Assembly: GCA_017992605.1 (NCBI GenBank)
Contig: JAGOOG010000016.1
Span: 1-45,122 of the forward strand
Source of the DNA: Deltaproteobacteria bacterium
GTDB lineage: Bacteria > Desulfobacterota > Desulfomonilia > UBA1062
Direction: 5' to 3'
DNA length: 45,122 nt
Shown: in pieces, positions 1,650-24,732 of the stretch
How positions within the stretch are numbered: position 1 is the first letter of the stretch
How the letters are laid out: each line of letters begins with the position of its first letter
Notes under the pieces: generated by a model
Databases searched by the model: none
What the model was told of the DNA's origin: nothing
Seen by the model: the letters and a program-made list of their open reading frames with translations, nothing else
Made by a program: the position numbers and the translations under genes

Positions 1650-4006
<2,357 letters not shown>

Positions 4007-4010
<4 letters not shown>

Positions 4011-5302
4011 GCCTGAAGGACCGCCTGGGACGCCTCACCGGGGACGCCCGGACACCGGCTTTACCCAGTCCCCGGCAGGACACCATCGGCGAGCTCCGCA
4101 GAAGAATCGAGGAGGTGATGAACCGGCGGGACCGCCTGGCGCGGCCCGATTCTCCTTCATCCATGCGTTCCGGTCCACCCCTGGAAAACCTGATAACGGG
4201 AGAGGAGGTGGAAACAGGGCACGGCAGGTTCTTCTCTTCTTGCAGCCGCATGGAAGGGTCCGACCGTCACGGCCACGCCCTGATCCGCGAGCTGTCCCGG
4301 TTCGACATGAAGGGTGTGGCGCTTCTGGGCGGGTCGGAAGCCTTTGCCGGCTGTTCGCCCGAGGACGCCCTGTTCGTAGATACCGAAACCACCGGGCTTG
4401 CCGGCGGCACCGGGACCTTCCCCTTCCTCATCGGCCTGGGCTGGTTCGAGGGTGGAACGTTCGTGACGTGCCAGCTCTTCGCCCGGGACTTCTCGGAAGA
4501 GCCATCCATGCTCGCATACCTGCAGGAGCTCGCGAGGAACAGGAGATTCCTGGTATCCTTCAACGGCAGGGCCTACGACATGAACCTGCTCACGGCCAGG
4601 TTCATCCTCAACCGGCAGCAGGACGTCCTCTCCGGCATGCCCCACCTGGACCTGCTCCACCCGGGGAGGAGGCTCCTGCGGCACCGCATGGAAAACGCCA
4701 GGCTCCTCACCTTCGAGACCAGCGTGCTCGGGATCGAGAGGGAGGGCGACGTCCCCGGGTGTGAGATACCCCGGCGGTACTTCGACTGGCTGCGGCGCCG
4801 CGACGGCCGCCTCATGGAGGACGTGTTCCGGCACAACCGCCTGGACATCGTGTCCATGGCCGCGCTCCTGAAGCACCTTACCGACCTTGTCGGCGGAGGC
4901 CTCGAGCCGGAGAGGACGCACCACGGCGACATACTGGCGGCAGCACGGTTCCTCCACGAGCGCGGGCATACCCAGGCTGCCCGGCGACTGTACGAAGGCG
5001 TCAGCTCATCTTTCGACCGGGAGGTCTCCCTTGCTGCCAGGAGGTCGCTGTCCCTGATCCACAGGAGGGCAGGGGCCTGGGAGGAGGCGGTCCCGCTGTG
5101 GGAGGCCATGCTCGCGGAGGACCCCCGTGACGTTTTCGCAGCCGAGGAGCTCGCCAAGTACCTCGAACACCGCAGGCAAGACTATGCGCGGGCCAAGCTG
5201 ATCGTGCGGATGGCGCTGGACGGCTGCAGGTCGTTGTGCGATGAGGACCGGCACGCCCTGGAGCATCGCCTGCACCGACTCCTTGCCAAGTCCTCGCCTT
5301 GA
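4007..5302 (+). CDS. mrfB: MrfB-like DEDDh exonuclease with C-terminal TPR-like region
   Basis: 431 residues from a GTG whose last two bases overlap the mrfA stop (GTGA), a sign of translational coupling. The RNase H-fold exonuclease core shows all five expected residues: D125 and E127 in a Phe-Val-Asp-Thr-Glu-Thr-Thr-Gly motif, D191 in a Phe-Asn-Gly-Arg-Ala-Tyr-Asp motif, and H276/D280 in His-Asn-Arg-Leu-Asp. After about residue 305 come helical repeats resembling tetratricopeptide units (about 305-420), as in YprB/MrfB proteins. The predicted job is trimming DNA after MrfA has bound or opened a lesion. The first 110 residues are poorly conserved in appearance and probably flexible. An alternative start would be the Met near residue 38, but the coupled GTG is preferred. 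Confidence 0.85.
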
Positions 5303-5411
5303 GGTGCCCATGGGATGACCTGCAGAGGCGACGTCCCCTTCATGCCCATTGCCTGGAGGTACCTCGTCATGATAGGTATTGATGTTTCAGAGAATTCGAG
5401 GTGGGGGCTCC

Positions 5412-6761
5412 ATGGAACACATAATAAAGAAGATCAACGACCTGGCACGATACCACGACGAGGTTTCGCCCGAGCTCATCAAGGCCAAGGACATCAAGCT
5501 GGGCCTGCGGAATGCGGACGGCACCGGCGTCGTGGTCGGAATCACCTCCAAGGGGACTGTTTTCGGATTCAAGCGCATACCGGCGGAAGACGGCAGGGGA
5601 ACCATTGTCCAGCCGGCAGCCGGCAGGCTGCTCTACTGCGGGTACGATGCCATAGAACTGGCCAGGAGGATCCACGGGGAGTACCGGTACGGATACGATG
5701 AGGTCTGTTACCTCCTCCTGACCGGGGAGCTCCCCACAGAGGTCGACCTGAACAACTTCTCGAGCCTGGTCGCCAGAAACAGGGCGCTCAACAAGTCCGA
5801 GCGGAGCATCATCATGCAGGAGGCTCAGAACGAGAACCAGATGTTCGCCCTGCACTCGGTCATGTCCCACCTGAGCAGGTGCGATCCCAGGCCGGTGTCC
5901 ACGGACCTCAGGGACGTCACCGAGACCTGCATCCGCCTCCTGGCCAAGGCGCCGACCATCGTGGCCTACAATTACAACGTGTCCCGCTACCGCCAGGGAT
6001 CGGGCCTGCGGATCATCACCCCGGACCCCGAACTATCCACGGCCGAGAACTTCCTCTACATGCTCAGGGGAACCAGGCCCCACAAGAGAGAGTCCATGCT
6101 CTTCGACCTCTCCCTCATGCTCCATGCCGAGCACGGAGGCGGCAACAACTCGACCTTCACCGTGCGCGCCGTCTCTTCCAGCGGTGCCAACACCTACATG
6201 GCCATCTGCTCGGGCATAGCGTCGCTTTCCGGCCACCTCCACGGAGGGGCCAACGAGGCGGTCATGCGCATGATGCGGGAGATCAGGAAGAACGTGAAAG
6301 ACTGGGAGGACCGCAGGCAGGTCCGACGATACCTGGAGAAGATCCTCGACGGCAAGGCCCACGACCGGGCCGGCAAGATCTACGGCATCGGCCACGCGGT
6401 CTACACCATAAGCGATCCCAGGGCCGAGATCCTCCTGGAAAAGGCCGAAGAGCTCGCCACGGAAAAGGAACTCATGGACGAACTGAACCTCATGAAGCTT
6501 GTGGCAGAGCTCGGCAGTGAGCTTGTCTACGAACGCAAAGGCCAGGTGGTGGCACCGAACGTGGACTTCTATTCGGGATTCGTCTACAAGATGCTCCGCA
6601 TCCCGATAGACCTGTTCACTCCCATCTTCGCCATGGCCCGGATCGCGGGATGGTCGGCCCACCGCATCGAGCAGATCATCCAGGCCAAGCTCATACGCCC
6701 GGCCTATGTGAGCTCGCTGCTCCAGGATTTGGAATACGTGCCGCTCGACGAGCGGGGGTGA
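5412..6761 (+). CDS. gltA: Citrate synthase
   Basis: 449 residues. Condenses acetyl-CoA with oxaloacetate to give citrate; cytoplasmic. The citrate synthase catalytic set is present: H241 in His-Ala-Glu-His, H277 in Leu-His-Gly-Gly-Ala-Asn-Glu-Ala, H328 in Gly-Ile-Gly-His-Ala-Val-Tyr and D385 in Asn-Val-Asp-Phe-Tyr-Ser-Gly. It is therefore Si-type citrate synthase (or a methylcitrate synthase of the same fold), not the unrelated Re-type enzyme found in some anaerobes. The ATG at 5412 is chosen because GAGGTGGGGG lies directly upstream; an in-frame ATG at 5379 has no such site. Aconitase lies elsewhere in the window on the other strand, so the two are not in one operon. Substrate preference (acetyl- versus propionyl-CoA) cannot be read from the sequence. 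Confidence 0.9.
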   Translation: MEHIIKKINDLARYHDEVSPELIKAKDIKLGLRNADGTGVVVGITSKGTVFGFKRIPAEDGRGTIVQPAAGRLLYCGYDAIELARRIHGEYRYGYDEVCYLLLTGELPTEVDLNNFSSLVARNRALNKSERSIIMQEAQNENQMFALHSVMSHLSRCDPRPVSTDLRDVTETCIRLLAKAPTIVAYNYNVSRYRQGSGLRIITPDPELSTAENFLYMLRGTRPHKRESMLFDLSLMLHAEHGGGNNSTFTVRAVSSSGANTYMAICSGIASLSGHLHGGANEAVMRMMREIRKNVKDWEDRRQVRRYLEKILDGKAHDRAGKIYGIGHAVYTISDPRAEILLEKAEELATEKELMDELNLMKLVAELGSELVYERKGQVVAPNVDFYSGFVYKMLRIPIDLFTPIFAMARIAGWSAHRIEQIIQAKLIRPAYVSSLLQDLEYVPLDERG

Positions 6762-6849
6762 ATGCTGGGAGTGCCGTGGTGATGGCCCCGGATGTTCCCT
6801 GTACTTCCGGAATGGGGCTCAACACCGTCACGCCGGAGGAGGCGCTGCC

Positions 6850-7731
6850 GTGAAGCGGATCGATTCGGATTTCACCAGCAGGGGGCAAAGGTGCTCGGCC
6901 TGGCTGTTTCTCCCTGACGGAAGGGAGAGACCCCCGGTCGTGGTCATGGCCCACGGCCTGGCCGGCCAGAAGGATTTCGGGCTCCAGGCCTATGCCGAAT
7001 ATTTTGCAGGCAGGGGCATGGCCTGCCTGGTCTTCGATTACCGGAACTACGGCGGCAGCGAGGGCGAACCGAGGAACCTGGTGAATCCCTGGATGCAGCT
7101 CGACGACTGGAAGGCGGCCATAAGCCATGCCCGCTACCTCCCCGAGGTGGACGGCTCGAGGCTCGCCCTGTGGGGGACGTCCTTCTCCGGCGGGCACGTC
7201 GTGGTGACCGCCGCGCAGGTGAGCGGCATCAGGGCCGTGGCGGCCCAGGTGCCGTTCGTGGATGGCGTCTCGTCGATTATGCAGTTTCCCGTATCCTACC
7301 AGCTCGAAGGCCTGTACCACGGACTCAAGGATCTGTACCGCATGATCACGGGCGGAACGCCCCACACGGTCCCTGCCGTCGGCGAGCCCGGGGCCTTCGC
7401 GCTCATGAACACCACCGAGTGCATGCCCGGGTACTTCGCCCTCGTGCCGCGGGACACCACGTGGAGGAACGAGGTCCCGGCCCGTTTCAACCTCATGGTC
7501 TCCGCCTACCGGCCCACCATGTATGCCCGGAAGGTCCCGTGCCCGGTGCTCCTCATGTACGCGAAGAACGACTCGCTGATCCCGTTCAAGGCCGTGGAGC
7601 GCATGGGCAGGAAGCTCAGGAACGCAGAGGTGATAGGCCTGCCCGTGGGACACTTCGACGTGTACACCGGCGAGCTGTTCAAGGAGGTTGTCGAGAAACA
7701 GGCCGGATTCCTGAAGGGCCATCTGCAATAA
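6850..7731 (+). CDS. Alpha/beta hydrolase (dienelactone hydrolase/esterase-like)
   Basis: 293 residues from a GTG preceded by GGAGGAGG. Single-domain alpha/beta hydrolase without a signal peptide. The oxyanion region is His-Gly-Leu-Ala near 35-38 and the nucleophile is probably S111 in Trp-Gly-Thr-Ser-Phe-Ser-Gly-Gly, where the usual second Gly of GxSxG is Ser. The acid is the Asp in Lys-Asn-Asp-Ser-Leu-Ile-Pro and the base the His in Gly-His-Phe-Asp near the C-terminus. The family hydrolyses esters, lactones or acyl groups; the substrate is unknown. It ends 26 bases before the dehydrogenase fusion and may be co-transcribed with it, which would suggest that it releases the alcohol or acid handled there. 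That last point is inference. Confidence 0.8.
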   Translation: MKRIDSDFTSRGQRCSAWLFLPDGRERPPVVVMAHGLAGQKDFGLQAYAEYFAGRGMACLVFDYRNYGGSEGEPRNLVNPWMQLDDWKAAISHARYLPEVDGSRLALWGTSFSGGHVVVTAAQVSGIRAVAAQVPFVDGVSSIMQFPVSYQLEGLYHGLKDLYRMITGGTPHTVPAVGEPGAFALMNTTECMPGYFALVPRDTTWRNEVPARFNLMVSAYRPTMYARKVPCPVLLMYAKNDSLIPFKAVERMGRKLRNAEVIGLPVGHFDVYTGELFKEVVEKQAGFLKGHLQ

Positions 7732-7757
7732 CATCTCTATTCGACGGGGAGGGTTGT

Positions 7758-10418
7758 GTGGAACATTTCAAGATGTTCATCGGGGGCGAATTCGTTGAAT
7801 CTCTGAGCGGCAGGACAAGGGAGGCCATCGACCCGGGCACGGGGCTGCCCTTTGCCACGTATGCCTACGGGGGCTCCGCCGATGCCGAGGCGGCCATCGA
7901 TGTGGCCCGGAAGACCTTCGACTCGGGCGTGTGGAGCGCGCTCAGCCAGGACGAGCGCTCCCGGGTCATCATGGACTTTTCGGACAGGCTGACCAAGTAC
8001 ATCGTGAGGATCGCATCCTACGAGTCCATGGATTCGGGCGGCATCATCAACCGCACCGGGGCCGAGGTGGTGGGGGCCTCCATGACCGCAAGGAACATGG
8101 CATGGTACGCGGCCCGCGAGTTCAAGTGGCACGAGGAGGTCCGCGTGCCGGCGTCGCTCGCAAGCCCAGGCAGGAACTACATCCGCAGGGAGCCGCTGGG
8201 CGTGTGCGTGGGCATCATCCCCTGGAACTTCCCCTTCGGCATGGCCATGTGGAAGATCCTCCACGCAGCGATCATGGGCAACTCCATAGTCCTGAAACCC
8301 GCTTCCGACACTACCCTGAGCGCGCTGATCCTGGCCGAGGTCATCGCAGAGAGCGCCATCCCCAGGGGAGTGGTGAACATCGTCACCGGCCCTGGCGGCG
8401 AGATCGGCGAAGCCCTGTGTCTGAGCCCCAAGGTGGACAAGATCGCGTTCACCGGCTCCACCGAGGTGGGCAGGCAGATCAAGAAGATGGGCTCGGAGAC
8501 CATCAAGAAGGTGACGCTGGAGCTGGGCGGGAAGTCAGCAAACATCATCTGCGACGACGCCAAGATGGACCTGGCCGTGGACGGCGGTCTGTTCGGCACC
8601 TTCTTCCACAGCGGCCAGATCTGCGAGTCGGGCACGAGGATCCTCGTGCAGAGGAAGATCTACGACGAGTACGTGGCACGCTTCATCGACAAGGCTTCCC
8701 GCATCAGGATCGGCTACCAGCTCGACCCGGCCACCCAGATGGGCCCCCTGGTGAGCGAGATCCAGCGGGCCACCACCGAGAAGTACGTGAAGATCGGCCT
8801 CGACGAGGGGGCCCGCCTCGCCTACGGCGGGAAGCGGCCCGACGGAGACCTGGGGGCCATGGGATACTACTACCTGCCCACCGTGTTCGTGGACGTGGAC
8901 AACTCCATGCGGATCGCTCAGGAGGAGATCTTCGGCCCGGTGGTGTGCATCATGCCCTTCGACGACGACGACGAGGCCGTGGCCATCGCAAACGACTCCA
9001 TCTACGGGCTCGGGGGAGGGGTGTTCTCCAACGACATCGGCCGGGCCGAGCGGATCGCGGCCAGGGTCAAGACCGGCACCGTATGGATCAACGACTACCA
9101 CGCCTTTGCCGACCTCATGCCCTTCGGCGGGTACAAGCAGTCGGGCGTCGGCCGGGAACTCGGCGGGTACGGCCTGTCCGAGTACACCCAGATAAAGCGG
9201 GTCCACGTGTGCCCCCACACGGACGGGACCCAGAAGTACACCTTCCCCATCATGTTCGACTACCCCCAGCCCGCCAAGTCCTTCCTCTTCGAAGGGCCCA
9301 CCAGGATCGTGGCCGGGCCGGACAGCATCATCGCGCTGCAGTTCGAGGTGACCAGGCTCGACCGCAGCAGGGCCGTGGTCATCACGGACAAGGGCATCAG
9401 GGACGCCGGTCTCCTCGACAGGGTGGTCAAGGCCCTGGGCTCGCTGTGCGTCGGGGCCTTCGACGGGGTGGTGGAGGACTCGGGGTACACGGTGGTGGAC
9501 AAGGCCGTCGACTACTGCCGGGGCGTGGGTGCCGACATCCTCGTGAGCCTGGGCGGAGGCAGCTCCATGGACACGGCCAAGGCCGTGGCCCTGACGCTCA
9601 CCAACGGCGGCAAGGCCATCGACAACATCACGCTCTACAAGCTCTGTGACCCGGTGATGCCGCACATCGCCATCCCCACCACGGCCGGCACGGGCAGCGA
9701 GGTCAGCACCATCGCGGTGATCAAGAACGAGGAGATCGGCCGCAAGTTCAACATCGCCGAATTCGTCATCGCACCGAACGTGGCCATCCTGGACCCGCAC
9801 ATGACGCTCAGCCTGCCCAGGATGCTCACCGCGGCCACGGGCATGGACGCCCTGACCCATGCGATCGACGGCATGTGCTCCATCATGCGCAATGCCGTCT
9901 GCACGGGCCATGGTCTCAACGCCATCCGCCTCATCGCCGAGCACCTTCCCAGGGTGGTGGAGAACCCGAACGACGTGGATGCACGAATGCAGATGCAGAT
10001 CGCGGCAGCCATGGCGGGCTGGGCCTTCTCCATCCCGTCGACCATCCTCACGCACTCCCTGGCCCACTGCATCGGCGCCAAGTACAAGATCCACCATGGC
10101 ACGCTCTGCGGGCTCTTCCTGCCGCACGTCATGAGATTCAACCAGGAGCAGTGCGCCGAGGAACTGTCGCTCGTGGCCGAGGCCATGGGCGTCGACGTGA
10201 GCGGCAAGACCAAGGCCCAGGCGGCAGCGGCTGCTGAGGATGCCGTGGAGGACCTCATGAAGAGGATCGGGATGCCGTTGAAGCTGCGGGATCTGGGCAT
10301 AGCCGAGGCGGAGATCCCCATGATCGCCCTGGACGCCATGACCGAGATCCCCACGCTCGCCAATCCCCGCAAGTGCACGGTGGAGCTCATCGACGGCGTG
10401 ATCAGGCAGGCGTTTTGA
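7758..10418 (+). CDS. Fused non-acylating aldehyde dehydrogenase / iron-type alcohol dehydrogenase
   Basis: 886 residues from a GTG preceded by GGGGAGGG. Residues 1 to about 490 are a classical ALDH: Pro-Trp-Asn-Phe-Pro substrate/NAD motif, Phe-Thr-Gly-Ser-Thr-Glu-Val-Gly, general base E255 in Leu-Glu-Leu-Gly-Gly-Lys, nucleophile C289 in Gly-Gln-Ile-Cys (34 apart, as in E268/C302 of the family), Glu-Glu-Ile-Phe-Gly-Pro and Pro-Phe-Gly-Gly-Tyr-Lys. From about residue 500 an iron-containing ADH follows, with Gly-Gly-Gly-Ser for NAD and the four metal ligands D697, H701, H766 and H780 all in place. The layout imitates AdhE, but AdhE has a CoA-acylating ALDH. Here the base Glu implies oxidation to a free acid. 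Expected reaction: alcohol to aldehyde to carboxylate, NAD(P)-linked, in the cytoplasm. Genes for a UxaA-type enzyme follow at once. Substrate unknown. Confidence 0.85.
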   Translation: MEHFKMFIGGEFVESLSGRTREAIDPGTGLPFATYAYGGSADAEAAIDVARKTFDSGVWSALSQDERSRVIMDFSDRLTKYIVRIASYESMDSGGIINRTGAEVVGASMTARNMAWYAAREFKWHEEVRVPASLASPGRNYIRREPLGVCVGIIPWNFPFGMAMWKILHAAIMGNSIVLKPASDTTLSALILAEVIAESAIPRGVVNIVTGPGGEIGEALCLSPKVDKIAFTGSTEVGRQIKKMGSETIKKVTLELGGKSANIICDDAKMDLAVDGGLFGTFFHSGQICESGTRILVQRKIYDEYVARFIDKASRIRIGYQLDPATQMGPLVSEIQRATTEKYVKIGLDEGARLAYGGKRPDGDLGAMGYYYLPTVFVDVDNSMRIAQEEIFGPVVCIMPFDDDDEAVAIANDSIYGLGGGVFSNDIGRAERIAARVKTGTVWINDYHAFADLMPFGGYKQSGVGRELGGYGLSEYTQIKRVHVCPHTDGTQKYTFPIMFDYPQPAKSFLFEGPTRIVAGPDSIIALQFEVTRLDRSRAVVITDKGIRDAGLLDRVVKALGSLCVGAFDGVVEDSGYTVVDKAVDYCRGVGADILVSLGGGSSMDTAKAVALTLTNGGKAIDNITLYKLCDPVMPHIAIPTTAGTGSEVSTIAVIKNEEIGRKFNIAEFVIAPNVAILDPHMTLSLPRMLTAATGMDALTHAIDGMCSIMRNAVCTGHGLNAIRLIAEHLPRVVENPNDVDARMQMQIAAAMAGWAFSIPSTILTHSLAHCIGAKYKIHHGTLCGLFLPHVMRFNQEQCAEELSLVAEAMGVDVSGKTKAQAAAAAEDAVEDLMKRIGMPLKLRDLGIAEAEIPMIALDAMTEIPTLANPRKCTVELIDGVIRQAF

Positions 10419-10438
10419 GGGAAAGGGAGGCCGGCCGG

Positions 10439-10711
10439 GTGAAGGCGAACGTCATCGTGATCAATCCAAAGGACAATGTGGCCGTTGCCCTGGAGGATAT
10501 CACCGAGGGGGCAGAGGTGAGACCACCGGGTATGGGTCCTTTCGCGGCCCAGGAGAAGATCCCTTACAGCCACAAGGTGGCGCTCACGGACATCAGTGCG
10601 GGCGGGACCGTTTTCAAATACGGCGAGTCCATAGGGAAAGCCTTGCATCACATCAGGCAGGGCACCTGGGTGCACACGCACAACCTCGCCATCGAGGAGG
10701 CCGGGTCGTGA
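10439..10711 (+). CDS. UxaA-family small subunit (SAF domain; altronate dehydratase/sulfolactate lyase type)
   Basis: 90 residues from a GTG with AAAGGGAGG upstream, 20 bases after the dehydrogenase fusion. It is a single SAF-type beta domain with the family ending Lys-Tyr-Gly-Glu-Ser-Ile-Gly and a His-Thr-His-Asn motif. In E. coli UxaA this domain is fused to the catalytic part. In SuyAB sulfolactate sulfo-lyase and many anaerobes it is a separate small subunit, as here. The stop overlaps the GTG of the large subunit (GTGA), so equal production of the two subunits is likely. Which hydroxy acid is bound cannot be decided from this subunit. Confidence 0.8.
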   Translation: MKANVIVINPKDNVAVALEDITEGAEVRPPGMGPFAAQEKIPYSHKVALTDISAGGTVFKYGESIGKALHHIRQGTWVHTHNLAIEEAGS

Positions 10712-11871
10712 CACGGACGACATTCAAGGGGTTTGTCCGCCCGGACGGGTCCGTCGGGATCAGGAACCACGTGGTGGTCATCCCGACCGTGGCCTGCGCG
10801 AACGGGGTGGCCGGTCTCGTCGAGAAGAACGTTCCCGGGGTGGTCGCCATCAGGCACGGCCACGGCTGCGGGCGGGCCCTCGAGATAGCCATGCACCAGG
10901 CCGCCCTGGCCGGGCTCGGGAAGAACCCCAATGTCGCAGGTGCAGTGGTCATCGGTCTCGGATGCGAGACCGTCAACGCCTCGGTGGTCGCATCCGAGAT
11001 CGGCGCCACAGGCAGGCCGGTCGAATTCTTCATGATCCAGAACGAAGGCGGCTCGAGGAAAACGGCCGAGAAGGCCAGTGCCGCAGCACAGAAGATGCTT
11101 GCGGATGCTTCCCGGATGCATCGTGAAGAATGCCCGCTCTCTCAGCTCATGCTCGGCCTGGAGTGCGGCGGGTCGGACGCCTTCTCCGGGGTCACTGCAA
11201 ACCCGGCCGTGGGCCTGGTGTCCGACTGGCTCGTTGACCGAGGCGGCACCGTGGTCCTCACCGAAAGCACCGAGATGATCGGCACGGCCCATATCCTGTT
11301 ACACAGAGCCCAAACCCCTGAAACGGCACAGCGGATCGTGCAGATCATCGACCAGGCGGAACGGCGAACAAAGGACATCCTCGGTCCCCTCGCCTCCCTC
11401 GTGATAGCCCCGGGCAACATGGACGGCGGCATGAGCTCCATCCAGGAGAAGTCCCTGGGCTGCATCTGCAAGGCAGGCAGCCGAGCCATCGCCGGCGTGG
11501 TGGACTACGGGCAGAGACCCGCCGGCCACGGGCTTATGATCATGGACGGGCCCGGCTATGACATGGAGTCCATGGCCGGCCTCGCCGCTGCCGGGTGCCA
11601 GCTCATGATCTTCACCACGGGCAGGGGCAATCCTACGGGGTTTCCCATCGTGCCGGTACTCAAGGTGGCGAGCACGAGCAGGCTCTACCAAGCCATGGAA
11701 GACGACATGGACGTGAATGCAGGCGCAGTGTTCGAGGGGAAGGGCCTTCAGGATGTGGCGGACGAGATCAAAGCCCTTGCCATTGAGGTCATGGCCGGCG
11801 CCCAGACCAGGGCCGAGAAGAACGAGCAGGGTGGCATCCTGTGCCTGTACGCCCTGACGCCGGCGTTCTGA
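10708..11871 (+). CDS. UxaA-family large subunit (hydroxy-acid dehydratase or sulfolactate-type lyase)
   Basis: 387 residues. Shows the family's Arg-Pro-Asp-Gly-Ser-Val-Gly-Ile-Arg-Asn start (about 10-19), His-Gly-His-Gly-Cys-Gly, Gly-Leu-Glu-Cys-Gly-Gly-Ser-Asp-Ala-Phe-Ser-Gly and a late Met-Asp-Gly-Pro-Gly-Tyr-Asp. Conserved Cys/His residues bind the catalytic metal. Members remove water from altronate, galactarate or related acids, or sulfite from 3-sulfolactate (SuyB). The length and separate small subunit fit SuyB-like as well as altronate-dehydratase-like members. No uronate isomerase, mannonate or altronate oxidoreductase gene lies nearby, which weakens a plain hexuronate role. The neighbouring alcohol/aldehyde oxidising fusion would supply a hydroxy acid. 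Family certain; reaction unresolved. Confidence 0.8.
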   Translation: MTRTTFKGFVRPDGSVGIRNHVVVIPTVACANGVAGLVEKNVPGVVAIRHGHGCGRALEIAMHQAALAGLGKNPNVAGAVVIGLGCETVNASVVASEIGATGRPVEFFMIQNEGGSRKTAEKASAAAQKMLADASRMHREECPLSQLMLGLECGGSDAFSGVTANPAVGLVSDWLVDRGGTVVLTESTEMIGTAHILLHRAQTPETAQRIVQIIDQAERRTKDILGPLASLVIAPGNMDGGMSSIQEKSLGCICKAGSRAIAGVVDYGQRPAGHGLMIMDGPGYDMESMAGLAAAGCQLMIFTTGRGNPTGFPIVPVLKVASTSRLYQAMEDDMDVNAGAVFEGKGLQDVADEIKALAIEVMAGAQTRAEKNEQGGILCLYALTPAF

Positions 11872-12093: not shown

Positions 12094-12114
12094 GAGAGGG
12101 TACAGGAGGTGAGC

Positions 12115-12363
12115 ATGGGTACCAGGGGAAGGAAACCGCTCGGCCTGAGAAGCGACGGCAAGAAAATCAGCCTCGTCAAGAGAAACTACTACATCGAGGA
12201 GCGCTATGCGAAGGCCCTTACCGTGCTCTCGGCATTGACAGGCAAGGAGCTTTCACTCCTGGTGAACGAGGCGATCGGGGACCTCATCATGAAGTACCAG
12301 CCCATGACCGATATCGACCTGCTCAGGATGAAGACCATGAAGAAGAAGGCTCTCACCTCGTGA
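12115..12363 (+). CDS. Small ribbon-helix-helix-like DNA-binding protein (copy 1)
   Basis: 82 residues. A basic N-terminal arm is followed by a short strand (Asn-Tyr-Tyr-Ile-Glu-Glu) and two helices ending in Asn-Glu-Ala-Ile-Gly-Asp-Leu-Ile, the pattern of CopG/Arc-type ribbon-helix-helix proteins that bind operators as dimers. The ATG at 12115 is preferred over the GTG two codons earlier because AGGAGGTG is well spaced from it. The gene ends 12 bases before the large PAS-LuxR gene and is almost certainly co-transcribed with it. A close paralogue (16035-16268) lies just after that gene; the core helices of the two match at most positions. No toxin gene is adjacent, so a plain regulator is more likely than an antitoxin. 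Confidence 0.7.
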   Translation: MGTRGRKPLGLRSDGKKISLVKRNYYIEERYAKALTVLSALTGKELSLLVNEAIGDLIMKYQPMTDIDLLRMKTMKKKALTS

Positions 12364-12375
12364 TACGTGCCGTGT

Positions 12376-15300
12376 ATGAGTGATTCCAGGGAACGTATCG
12401 ACCACCTCACCGCGGAACTGGACAGGGCCCGGGGGCGCATTGCGGAGCTGGAATCGGAGGCCGCAAGCCTCAGGCGGTGCGAGGATGACCTCCGCGAGAG
12501 CGTCGAGAAGTACAGCCTGTACTTCTCCATCGTCAACGATGTCATCTATTCGTACGACCCTGACTTCACACTCCTGAGTGTCTCGCCCAATGTCGAGAGG
12601 CTTCTCGGGTACAGCGCGGAAGAACTCGTCGGAAAACCATTTCATGAGCTCGGGGTGCTCGACGAGGGGGATCTGGACAGGGCGTTGAAGGATGCCCTGC
12701 ACGTCCTGAATGGGGGAACGATACATGCAACCGTCTACCGGTTCGTCACCAGGGACGGGAGGATGGTGTTCGGGGAGGTAAGCGGGACACCCCTCCTGCG
12801 CAAGGGGAAGATAGAAGGGGTCATCTCTGTCGCGCGTGACATAACCCGGCGCATCGATCTCGAGAAGTCCTTCAGGGAGGAGGCGGAGAAATACCTTGCC
12901 CATTTTTCCCTCACCAGCGACGTGCTGTACGCCGTAGATGCCCAGCTCGTGCTCAAGACCGTGTCTCCCAGTGTCAAGCATGTCCTCAACTACAGCCCTG
13001 AAGAGCTGATCGGCAGGAGCCTGCGCGATCTCGACATGATCCACCCCGAAGATGTCGACAGGGCCGCCTCCGATACGCTTCGCATGCTGTCCGGAGACAA
13101 GATGGAGCCGTCCGTCTACAGGTTCATCACCAGTGCCGGCGAGGTGCGTTACGGCGAGGTGAAGGGCATACCGCTCATGGAGAACGGAAGTGTCGCAGGT
13201 GTCGTCGCGGTGGCCAGGGATGTCACCGGCCGCGTCATGGCCCAGGAGAAGATCCGGACGTACCAGGATCGCCTTGAAGAGTTGGTCCGGGAACGCACCG
13301 CAGAACTCATCAGGGCGAATGAATCCCTTGAAAAGGAGATAGGAGAGCGGGCCCGCACAGAGGACGCGCTCCGGGTATCGGAAGCCAGGTACCGCCTCCT
13401 CTACGAAGGGATGGAGGATGCCTTCGTCCAGGTCGGCATGGACGGCAGTATACAGGAGTTCAACCCTGCCTACCCCAGGATGCTCGGGTATGACCCCGAA
13501 GACCTCCATACCTTGACCTACCTGGACATCACGCCTTCCAGGTGGCACGCATACGAGGCCGATATCCTGAGAAGCCAGACCATGGTGAGGGGATATTCAG
13601 AACTTTATGAGAAGGAATACGCCCGGAAGGACGGCACGATTGTACCGATCGAGCTGCGCACATATCTTGTCAGAGACGCTCAGGGGCAGCCATCGGCCAT
13701 GTGGGCCATCGTGCGGGACATCACGGGGCGCAAGAAGGTTGAGATGGCCCTCCGCGAGAGCGAGCGTCGGTTCCGCGACCTGGCCGAGAACACGAGCGAC
13801 CTGATCTGGGAGACCGACGAACAGCTCCGCTTCACCTACATGAGCCAGAAGATCGTGGACCATCTGGGGTATGGTCCTGAAGACCGGGTGGGCAGGACCC
13901 TTCTCGATGTCATACCACGCGAAGATTCTCTCCGCCTGGGGCCGTTCATACTGAGTCTCATGGAACAACCACGGCCCTTCCAGAATCTCGAATACACGGC
14001 CCTTCATCAGGATGGGTCCGTGCGGATACGTGAGGCGAGCGGAGTACCCATCTACGACAGTGAAGGCAGGCACGTGGGCTACCGTGGTGTCACCCGGGAC
14101 ATCACGGAGCGCAGGAAGGCCGAGGACAGGCTCAGGGATAGCGAGGCCAAATACCGGTTTGTAGCGGAGAAGATGAGCGACATCGTCTGGACCATGGATC
14201 TCAACCTGCGCACTACCTATGTCAGTCCTTCGGTCACCACGGTCCTCGGTTACACCCCCGAAGAGAGGATGCAGCAGGAACCCCGGGACCAGCTGACCGA
14301 AGCGTCCTATGAACATGCAACCGGGCTCTTGGCCGGAGAGATGGAGAGGGAAGGCCAGGAGGGCGTGGATCCTGAAAGAATGATTTCCATGGAGGTCGAA
14401 TACATCCACAAGGACGGATCCACGGTCTGGATGGAGAATGTGATCAGCGGCATCAGGGATGAACATGGAACCCTCATTGGGCTGCACGGGGTCTCCCGGG
14501 ATATCACCGATCGCAAGAGGGCCGAGGAGCAGCTCCTGGCATCGGAAAAGAAATTCGCGGCAGCCTTCCACTCGAGCCCGGCCCCCATGGTGATAACCTC
14601 CCCCGAGGACGGCACGATCATAGACGCAAATCAGGCCTGCCAGGAGTGGTCAGGATACACCCTGGCAGAGGCTGCCGGACGGACCACGACCGAGATGGGA
14701 TTCTGGCAGGGCCCTGGCAAGCGGACGGCATTCATCCATGAAATGATGGAAAAGGGAGCGGTTGACGGCCTGGAGATGGAATACACCAACAGGGGCGGTG
14801 AGGCCAGGGATGTCCTGCACTCGGCCAGACTCATCGAGATCAATGGCAGGCAATGTCTGCTCTCACACATTCAGGACATTACGGAAAAGAACAGGGCAGA
14901 GAAGGCCCTGAGGCAGAGCGAGGAGCGTCTGCGCGGCATGGCGAACAACTTCCCTGGTGTTGTGTTCCAGTTCTATGCCCGCGACAACAAGGAGATGGGA
15001 TTCTATTATCTCAGCGAGCGGACCATTAACGTCATGGGACTTGAGAACGATACCGGCGATTTTCTCGATCGGTCCCTGGCCTGCATCTCACCCGAGGACC
15101 TGGAGCGTTTCCGTGCTGCCGTCAGGGAGTCAATACGTGCCGAGAGCGCCTGGGATTTTGCCTGCAGGTTCACCAAACCCGGCGGGAAGGAGGTCTTTCT
15201 CCGGGGGATATCGCAGCCTGTCCGACACGCGCATGAGCTGGTCTTCAGCGGGGTGCTGTTCGACGTAACCCAGCAGAAACTCCTGGATGAAGAGCTCAGG

Positions 15301-15870
15301 CGGCACAAGGACCAGCTCGAAGAGATGGTCCTGTCGCGGACCTCAGAGCTTACCCGCACCCTGCAGATGCTCACGGATGAGATCGAGATTCGAAAAAAGA
15401 CGGAGAAGACTTTGCGGTATCGAGAGATGGAACTGAAGAATCGGAGTATCGAGCTCGAGGAGATGAATGCAGCGCTGAAGGTACTGCTCAAGCAGCGGGA
15501 CGAGGACAGGTCAACGATGGAGATGAACGTCCTGACGAACATGAAGACGTTTATTCTGCCTCACATCGAAAGGCTCGAGAAAGCGGGGCTCGAAGAAGGT
15601 CAGATAAAGTCCCTGTCGATGCTCAGGGGCCATCTCGAAGAGATCACCTCGCCGTTCACCAGGAGGATATCCTCTGAGTTCCTGGGCCTGACGCCTGCAG
15701 AGATACAGGTGGCTTCACTCATTCGCGATGGCAAGAGTTCCAAGGAAATCGCAAGGATACTAAATATATCGATCAACACGGTCCACACCTACCGGTTCAA
15801 CATCAGGAAAAAGACAGGAGTGAAGAACAACAAGGTCAACCTGAGATCATTCCTGAAGACCCTTGAGTGA
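12376..15870 (+). CDS. Seven-PAS sensor protein with C-terminal LuxR-type HTH
   Basis: 1164 residues, no membrane segment, so cytoplasmic. After a short coiled coil (about 5-40) seven PAS/PAC repeats begin near residues 45, 168, 336, 461, 588, 722 and 847, most closing with an Arg-Asp-Ile-Thr motif. A second coiled coil runs about 974-1050, and a LuxR/GerE helix-turn-helix (about 1100-1160) contains Leu-Thr-Pro-Ala-Glu-Ile-Gln-Val-Ala and Ser-Lys-Glu-Ile-Ala. There is no histidine kinase, receiver, GGDEF or EAL domain, so signals seem to pass directly to DNA binding. Ligands (haem, flavin, small molecules) cannot be predicted. The GTG at 12367 is an alternative start; neither has a strong ribosome site, suggesting coupling to the RHH gene just upstream. 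Confidence 0.85.
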   Translation: MSDSRERIDHLTAELDRARGRIAELESEAASLRRCEDDLRESVEKYSLYFSIVNDVIYSYDPDFTLLSVSPNVERLLGYSAEELVGKPFHELGVLDEGDLDRALKDALHVLNGGTIHATVYRFVTRDGRMVFGEVSGTPLLRKGKIEGVISVARDITRRIDLEKSFREEAEKYLAHFSLTSDVLYAVDAQLVLKTVSPSVKHVLNYSPEELIGRSLRDLDMIHPEDVDRAASDTLRMLSGDKMEPSVYRFITSAGEVRYGEVKGIPLMENGSVAGVVAVARDVTGRVMAQEKIRTYQDRLEELVRERTAELIRANESLEKEIGERARTEDALRVSEARYRLLYEGMEDAFVQVGMDGSIQEFNPAYPRMLGYDPEDLHTLTYLDITPSRWHAYEADILRSQTMVRGYSELYEKEYARKDGTIVPIELRTYLVRDAQGQPSAMWAIVRDITGRKKVEMALRESERRFRDLAENTSDLIWETDEQLRFTYMSQKIVDHLGYGPEDRVGRTLLDVIPREDSLRLGPFILSLMEQPRPFQNLEYTALHQDGSVRIREASGVPIYDSEGRHVGYRGVTRDITERRKAEDRLRDSEAKYRFVAEKMSDIVWTMDLNLRTTYVSPSVTTVLGYTPEERMQQEPRDQLTEASYEHATGLLAGEMEREGQEGVDPERMISMEVEYIHKDGSTVWMENVISGIRDEHGTLIGLHGVSRDITDRKRAEEQLLASEKKFAAAFHSSPAPMVITSPEDGTIIDANQACQEWSGYTLAEAAGRTTTEMGFWQGPGKRTAFIHEMMEKGAVDGLEMEYTNRGGEARDVLHSARLIEINGRQCLLSHIQDITEKNRAEKALRQSEERLRGMANNFPGVVFQFYARDNKEMGFYYLSERTINVMGLENDTGDFLDRSLACISPEDLERFRAAVRESIRAESAWDFACRFTKPGGKEVFLRGISQPVRHAHELVFSGVLFDVTQQKLLDEELRRHKDQLEEMVLSRTSELTRTLQMLTDEIEIRKKTEKTLRYREMELKNRSIELEEMNAALKVLLKQRDEDRSTMEMNVLTNMKTFILPHIERLEKAGLEEGQIKSLSMLRGHLEEITSPFTRRISSEFLGLTPAEIQVASLIRDGKSSKEIARILNISINTVHTYRFNIRKKTGVKNNKVNLRSFLKTLE

Positions 15871-24300: not shown

Positions 24301-24702
24301 CTAGTATCGTGCGGGGATCTTTTCGAGGACTTTGTTGATGCGGTCGGCTAAGGATGCGAGTTTGAGGGCCTTGACCATGTTGCCCTTGAGTCTCAGCTTC
24401 CCGCTCATGAGGGCTCGCTGGGACTTGATCTTCCCCTGTGTGAGGCCGGCAAAGATGTCGTAGGGACCGGTGACCCTGAAATCGCTCTGAGGGGGATCGC
24501 CTTCACCCACGAGGATCTGCTCGAACCTGCCGTCGGTGGTCTTGAAATAGAGATACCTGTCGCGGCCGTCCGGACAGCCCACATACACATAGGCCACCGA
24601 CGAGGTGAGGTGTTTCATCTTCTCCGGGGAGATCTCCCCCTTGAGCCGTTTTTCCGCTTCGTCGCGCCATTGCTGGCTCAGGTATGTAACGGTCTGTTCC
24701 AT
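24301..24702 (-). CDS. SCP2 sterol-carrier-domain protein
   Basis: 133 residues covering one SCP2 domain: an N-terminal helix, a mixed strand region (Arg-Tyr-Leu-Tyr-Phe-Lys), then Gly-Lys-Ile-Lys ... Ser-Gly-Lys-Leu-Arg-Leu-Lys-Gly-Asn and a C-terminal helix. SCP2 domains form a hydrophobic tunnel for lipids or acyl-CoA. In anaerobes such stand-alone proteins are often linked to lipid or aromatic acid metabolism. AAAGGAGG precedes the ATG. The neighbours in the same run, a lipoprotein hydrolase and an M24 protein, do not fix a substrate. Confidence 0.8.
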   Translation of the reverse strand: MEQTVTYLSQQWRDEAEKRLKGEISPEKMKHLTSSVAYVYVGCPDGRDRYLYFKTTDGRFEQILVGEGDPPQSDFRVTGPYDIFAGLTQGKIKSQRALMSGKLRLKGNMVKALKLASLADRINKVLEKIPARY

Positions 24703-24732
24703 GTCAATCCTCCTTTCCCTTCACGTCTATGC

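Follow-up and report, generated by a model that had tools for sequence, protein, structure and literature searches.

What reaction is catalyzed by a protein that has the domain order of AdhE, but an aldehyde dehydrogenase (ALDH) half of another kind, and that is encoded in a lyase operon of an anaerobe-type member of the Desulfobacterota? The question is raised by a gene in a 45,122-nucleotide stretch of DNA, here called the window, from a Deltaproteobacteria bacterium (contig JAGOOG010000016.1). The 886-amino-acid product joins an N-terminal ALDH to a C-terminal iron-dependent alcohol dehydrogenase (Fe-ADH), as had originally been predicted from the DNA sequence. The open frame spans 7170-10418 (+), and a GTG start at 7758 is supported because homologues open with the same M-E/D-H-F/Y-K residues. 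The gene and its parts are as follows.

7758-10418, plus strand: bdhE-type gene with GTG start (open reading frame, Pfam, trees of both halves, residue alignment)
7746-7753, plus strand: ribosome-binding-site-like GGGGAGGG (direct reading of the sequence)
7794-9203, plus strand: ALDH domain, residues 13-482, predicted hydrolytic NAD type, with E255, C289, N157 and E390 (Pfam PF00171, motif columns, tree)
9297-10412, plus strand: Fe-ADH domain, residues 514-885, predicted ligands D697, H701, H766 and H780 (PF00465 and PF25137, FucO alignment, tree, AU test)

The domain search proposed with the original prediction returned Aldedh (PF00171) at residues 13-482 (3e-156), followed by Fe-ADH at 514-680 and ADH_Fe_C at 691-885. 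The original prediction knew of no well-studied enzyme with this combination. Such an enzyme, BdhE (bifunctional dehydrogenase E) of Halomonas eurihalina, was reported in 2025 together with its cryo-EM structure, 9LDL (Konno et al. 2025; PMC12454647). According to the main text of that report, BdhE is an ALDH-ADH fusion with an origin independent from that of AdhE, it forms ring-like tetramers, and a tunnel between the ALDH and ADH sites is proposed; its physiological role is not established there, and redundancy with AdhE is inferred by the authors.

On sequence comparison, the window protein is a member of BdhE, and the fusion is thus not a novel one. Among solved structures, 9ldl, also 886 amino acids long, matched both halves best, with 51% identity over all aligned residues and more than 40% in each half. 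The ALDH half alone matched with E = 2e-184, well past what chance would give; the match covered all but the linker, and the HMMER alignments ran without gaps through residues 1-487 and through the ADH stretch. Given this gap-free alignment, the window protein probably has the elongated interface loops specific to BdhE, the coordinates of which are absent from the published main text. A monomer model (pLDDT 82, pTM 0.82) also retrieved 9ldl on top in a structure search, with an rmsd of 31 to 9ldl, and the relative placement of the domains in the model is not reliable.

In order to place each half, trees of 51 ALDH domains and 54 ADH domains, a limited taxon sample, were examined. All BdhE sequences, including 9ldl and the window protein, formed a single clade in the ALDH tree (100/100) and in the ADH tree (100/98). 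The ALDH half did not fall within the AdhE family; AdhE and EutE were far off, separated from BdhE by very long, supported branches, and a joint clade of the ADH halves of BdhE and AdhE was rejected (AU test, p-AU 0.0002). The two domains are always joined within the sampled BdhE clade because sampled single-domain proteins never fall inside it. Like AdhE, the window protein is a single chain longer than 700 residues in ALDH-ADH order, with a similar length and the same iron ligands. However, it shares ∼20% identity with AdhE in the fold match and scored 287 against a cutoff of 951 with the AdhE equivalog NF010378. Membership in AdhE was rejected on the residues, both domain trees and the AU test; the two fusions appear to be independent.

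The full fusion was found in 9 of 395 genomes sampled evenly from the phylum, and the window protein shares a subclade with further genomes of its family. Two genomes each carry two divergent copies (G018, loci L006/L033 and L047; G325, loci L078 and L079). A peptide-pattern search for fusions in viral contigs gave no match. On plasmids, the annotated near-full-length matches among the matches listed were adjacent, separate gene pairs. The gbsA-gbsB or betB-type pairs of an ALDH gene with an Fe-ADH neighbor (Priestia and Geobacillus plasmids) combine the same two enzyme classes as BdhE, but they are unfused and lie outside the BdhE clade.

The residue alignment of 22 BdhE sequences, including 9ldl and a few truncated rows, shows an ALDH half of the predicted hydrolytic NAD type with intact catalytic residues. 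In all BdhE rows that extend over them, E255, C289, N157 and E390 were invariant, as were D697, H701, H766 and H780. The nucleophilic Cys, general-base Glu, oxyanion Asn and EEIFGP motif of non-acylating NAD-dependent ALDHs (PF00171) are all present, and E255 stands 34 residues before C289, exactly as first reported. In contrast, the column of E255 is occupied by G/A and that of N157 by T in AdhE and EutE of Escherichia coli; the ALDH half of AdhE is of the acylating EutE type. The four iron-ligand columns, an Asp and three His, match those of E. coli FucO (4/4), placing the ADH half among group III iron-dependent ADHs. The original prediction of an ALDH half outside the CoA-acylating kind agrees with the residues and the ALDH tree, and both halves look active, as had been expected.

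In domain order, length, identity, catalytic residues and position in both trees, the window protein resembles Halomonas BdhE. It differs in its host and in its genomic setting, a UxaA-type lyase operon in which sister species carry other genes. The text of the published study analyzes the neighbors of single-domain sister genes and not those of bdhE itself (PMC12454647), and the genomic context of BdhE, that is, the locus of exchange, is what is new here. The neighbors of the window gene are as follows.

5409-6761, plus strand: citrate synthase family protein, left synteny anchor (Pfam/profile search, synteny)
6850-7731, plus strand: alpha/beta hydrolase directly upstream of bdhE, left border of the exchanged block (Pfam, synteny, DNA comparison)
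10439-10711, plus strand: SAF-domain protein, putative small subunit of a UxaA-type lyase, ∼20 bp after bdhE (PF08666, kept with UxaC in sister species)
10708-11871, plus strand: putative large subunit of a UxaA/GarD-type lyase ("UxaC"), with a 4-bp overlap with the SAF gene (PF04295, PF20629)
12109-12363, plus strand: small conserved protein of 84 amino acids, right synteny anchor (synteny)
12367-15870, plus strand: multi-PAS protein, right synteny anchor, syntenic in sister species (open reading frame, synteny)

Most genomes in the window's family carry UxaC, and that of the nearest sister is 84% identical. Judging from these comparisons, the SAF/UxaC pair is native to the window genome and UxaC is vertically inherited. 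The pair (window 10439-11871; L102-L116) is single copy in most genomes of the family and is often near the same citrate synthase.

In four sister species of the same genus (G001-G004; loci L102-L105), a 422-amino-acid Fe-ADH and an aldehyde:ferredoxin oxidoreductase (AOR) of ∼610 amino acids directly precede SAF-UxaC (in L102 the two genes span 3983-7096), and in the window genome BdhE occupies the place of this pair. Pfam found AFOR_N and AFOR_C in the one sister AOR tested, to which the other three are 77 to 82% identical, and the nearest solved structure is the aldehyde ferredoxin oxidoreductase 1aor. Enzymes of this type convert aldehydes to free acids. The displaced Fe-ADH (L102:3983-5251; L103-L105) has AdhE ADH domains as its nearest solved relatives and groups with the ADH half of E. 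coli AdhE, not with BdhE, yet it stands alone next to the AOR.

The flanks are largely common to the window and the sister species: citrate synthase, alpha/beta hydrolase, small protein and PAS protein. Two sisters have an intact hydrolase and G003 has a remnant of it; in G001 it was not detected. Downstream of the operon, the small protein and the multi-PAS protein that follows it (window 12109-15870) are syntenic in three sister species; in the fourth, G001, a PAS protein lies at this spot, where the small protein was not detected. DNA similarity to G003 (L102) ends within the hydrolase tail and restarts at window position 10434, just past the stop codon of the sister AOR. Targeted searches of the window genome, which is 98.5% complete, found no orthologue of either displaced gene: the best match to the AOR was 41% identical, versus 77 to 100% among the sisters, and the best match to the ADH was BdhE itself at 39%, versus 79 to 100% among the sisters. 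Gene order and DNA similarity show an exact syntenic exchange of the predicted Fe-ADH and AOR for BdhE. General loss of AOR is not supported as the reason, given that five AOR-family genes remain in the window genome, including an AOR-SCP2-ADH cassette.

A parallel is offered by cassettes with SCP2-domain genes. The sampled single-domain ADHs nearest to the ADH half of BdhE (43 to 46% identity; sister group, 93/90) lie in AOR-SCP2-ADH cassettes of the window's family; the cassette order is ADH-SCP2-AOR for a more distant relative. An SCP2-domain gene directly follows bdhE in seven loci, mostly in Desulfarculus-like genomes (our own HMM), and Pfam confirmed all three of these genes that were tested. 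An SCP2-like gene beside L075 was dropped for want of Pfam confirmation. By gene order, the ALDH domain stands where an AOR would stand in the BdhE-SCP2 loci and the exchange locus alike. The complete BdhE genome G056 has no AOR-family gene; most BdhE genomes do have one. The AOR-SCP2-Fe-ADH cassette recurs in the window's family (L048 = G000:C49, L117-L130 and L132, including the distant ADH-SCP2-AOR form), and a literature search found no paper that describes it. A weak SCP2-like protein (our own HMM, E 1e-9) is also encoded in the window at 24304-24720 (-).

The best explanation of the whole, to which we assign a probability of about 70%, is that the window protein is a BdhE member that oxidizes an alcohol to a free carboxylate with NAD, replacing an Fe-ADH and an AOR in a lyase operon. 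With NAD+, the Fe-ADH half would convert a primary alcohol to its aldehyde, which would then be passed to the ALDH half (a tunnel is published for the Halomonas protein only). There, C289 would form a thiohemiacetal from which hydride is transferred to NAD+, and E255 would activate water so that the thioester is hydrolyzed and free carboxylate released. The UxaA-type (de)hydratase/lyase would act on this acid, in series with BdhE. That BdhE does the job of the ADH and the AOR is suggested by the exchange at the locus and by the parallel with the SCP2/AOR cassettes, and a free-acid product fits because the general base is conserved. The two-step alcohol-to-carboxylate oxidation first proposed from the sequence fits this gene context. 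Hydrolytic ALDHs are effectively irreversible, which suggests that the operon would run in the oxidative direction. Like the sister pair, BdhE would carry out the presumed conversion of alcohol to aldehyde to acid from the same place in the operon; the sisters, in contrast, use two polypeptides with a ferredoxin-linked, tungsten-type second step. The SCP2 neighbors elsewhere may hint at lipophilic alcohols, and the UxaA-type lyase at the window locus at a hydroxylated acid.

If so, an NAD-linked fusion enzyme can replace a tungsten-dependent, ferredoxin-linked step in the operon of an anaerobe. A more general proposal, for and against which we consider the evidence evenly balanced, is that BdhE in these anaerobes is a channeled, tungsten-free alcohol-to-carboxylate oxidase that can replace separate Fe-ADH and AOR enzymes in place, with the electrons of the aldehyde step going to NADH instead of ferredoxin and the published acetyl-CoA activity being a side reaction. 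Several observations weigh against free-acid formation as the role of BdhE. Taking the place of other genes at a locus is suggestive, but not proof, of a common reaction, and AOR together with ADH can also run toward acid reduction. The exchange was seen in one species, and a single assembly shows its right-hand junction; the window genome retains its five AOR-family genes, and neighbors differ at other BdhE loci.

The published work also points elsewhere. Halomonas BdhE was reported to consume NADH in an acetyl-CoA-dependent manner, that is, to reduce acetyl-CoA, and to oxidize ethanol, in an assay that contained CoA, and choline; no species of the published set has both AdhE and BdhE, and Konno et al. 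argue for a redundant, AdhE-like function (PMC12454647). BdhE would then substitute functionally for AdhE, as a CoA-dependent enzyme that works reversibly between acetyl-CoA and ethanol but uses a different ALDH. This seems unlikely for the window protein. The general base and oxyanion Asn of hydrolytic ALDHs are invariant in BdhE and missing in AdhE and EutE, from which the ALDH half is far removed in the tree, and the window gene holds the place of an AOR, a maker of free acids. Furthermore, the published rates are below those of AdhE, and a CoA-free control was not found when the main text was searched by term (PMC12454647). The residues and the gene exchange favor free-acid chemistry over the published acetyl-CoA role, although they cannot settle the matter. 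The exchange offers the hypothesis opposite to the published one, namely, that BdhE makes free acids and replaces ADH and AOR, and makes the role of BdhE testable.

Oxidation of choline to betaine for osmoprotection, with an ALDH half that resembles betaine aldehyde dehydrogenase, would account for the choline activity of the Halomonas enzyme, and BetB proteins were the best single-domain solved matches. We regard it as quite improbable: the betaine aldehyde dehydrogenase profile scored 512 against a cutoff of 669, no bet-type gene was present among the annotated neighbors, and the displaced and downstream genes encode an AOR and a UxaA-type lyase.

Nor is it at all probable that the exchange is an artefact of assembly or binning in which a bdhE contig was wrongly joined to the SAF-UxaC operon, even though the right-hand junction is known from one genome. 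A 3.6-kb contig (L007; JAKPQL010000136.1 = G004:C112) from the G004 metagenome-assembled genome (MAG) is 99.8% identical to window 6014-9587 and, coming from another MAG and not being identical to the window, confirms the junction on the left, as it runs from citrate synthase into bdhE. This contig is itself probably a misbinned piece of the window's species, because its MAG contains a citrate synthase of its own as well as a diverged version of the operon. At the right junction lie a ribosome site and a short gap, DNA similarity restarts exactly at the SAF gene, and the displaced genes are absent elsewhere in the nearly complete window genome.

UxaC is 42 to 44% identical to UxaA-family proteins in sugar-acid-type plasmid loci and 33 to 34% identical to SuyB of canonical suyAB loci; it forms its own clade with syntrophic relatives, apart from SuyB, and the pair was rejected as a SuyAB sulfolactate sulfo-lyase. 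Oxidation of 2,3-dihydroxypropanesulfonate to sulfolactate by BdhE, with SuyAB-like cleavage to pyruvate and sulfite by SAF/UxaC, is thus very improbable, although small and large UxaA-type subunits follow immediately after bdhE, in the manner of suyAB; neither a sulfonate transporter nor a sulfite exporter was identified next to UxaC.

UxaC was absent from beside bdhE at every other BdhE locus examined for it, and BdhE-UxaA was rejected as a conserved pair; these loci have different neighbor genes. The bdhE gene of a different genus (L044) adjoins an aconitase/LeuCD-like pair, a metallo-beta-lactamase-fold protein, an Asp/Glu racemase-like protein and a PrpF-like isomerase. A second locus from that genus (L045) shares some of these neighbors, in a pathway context unlike that of the window.
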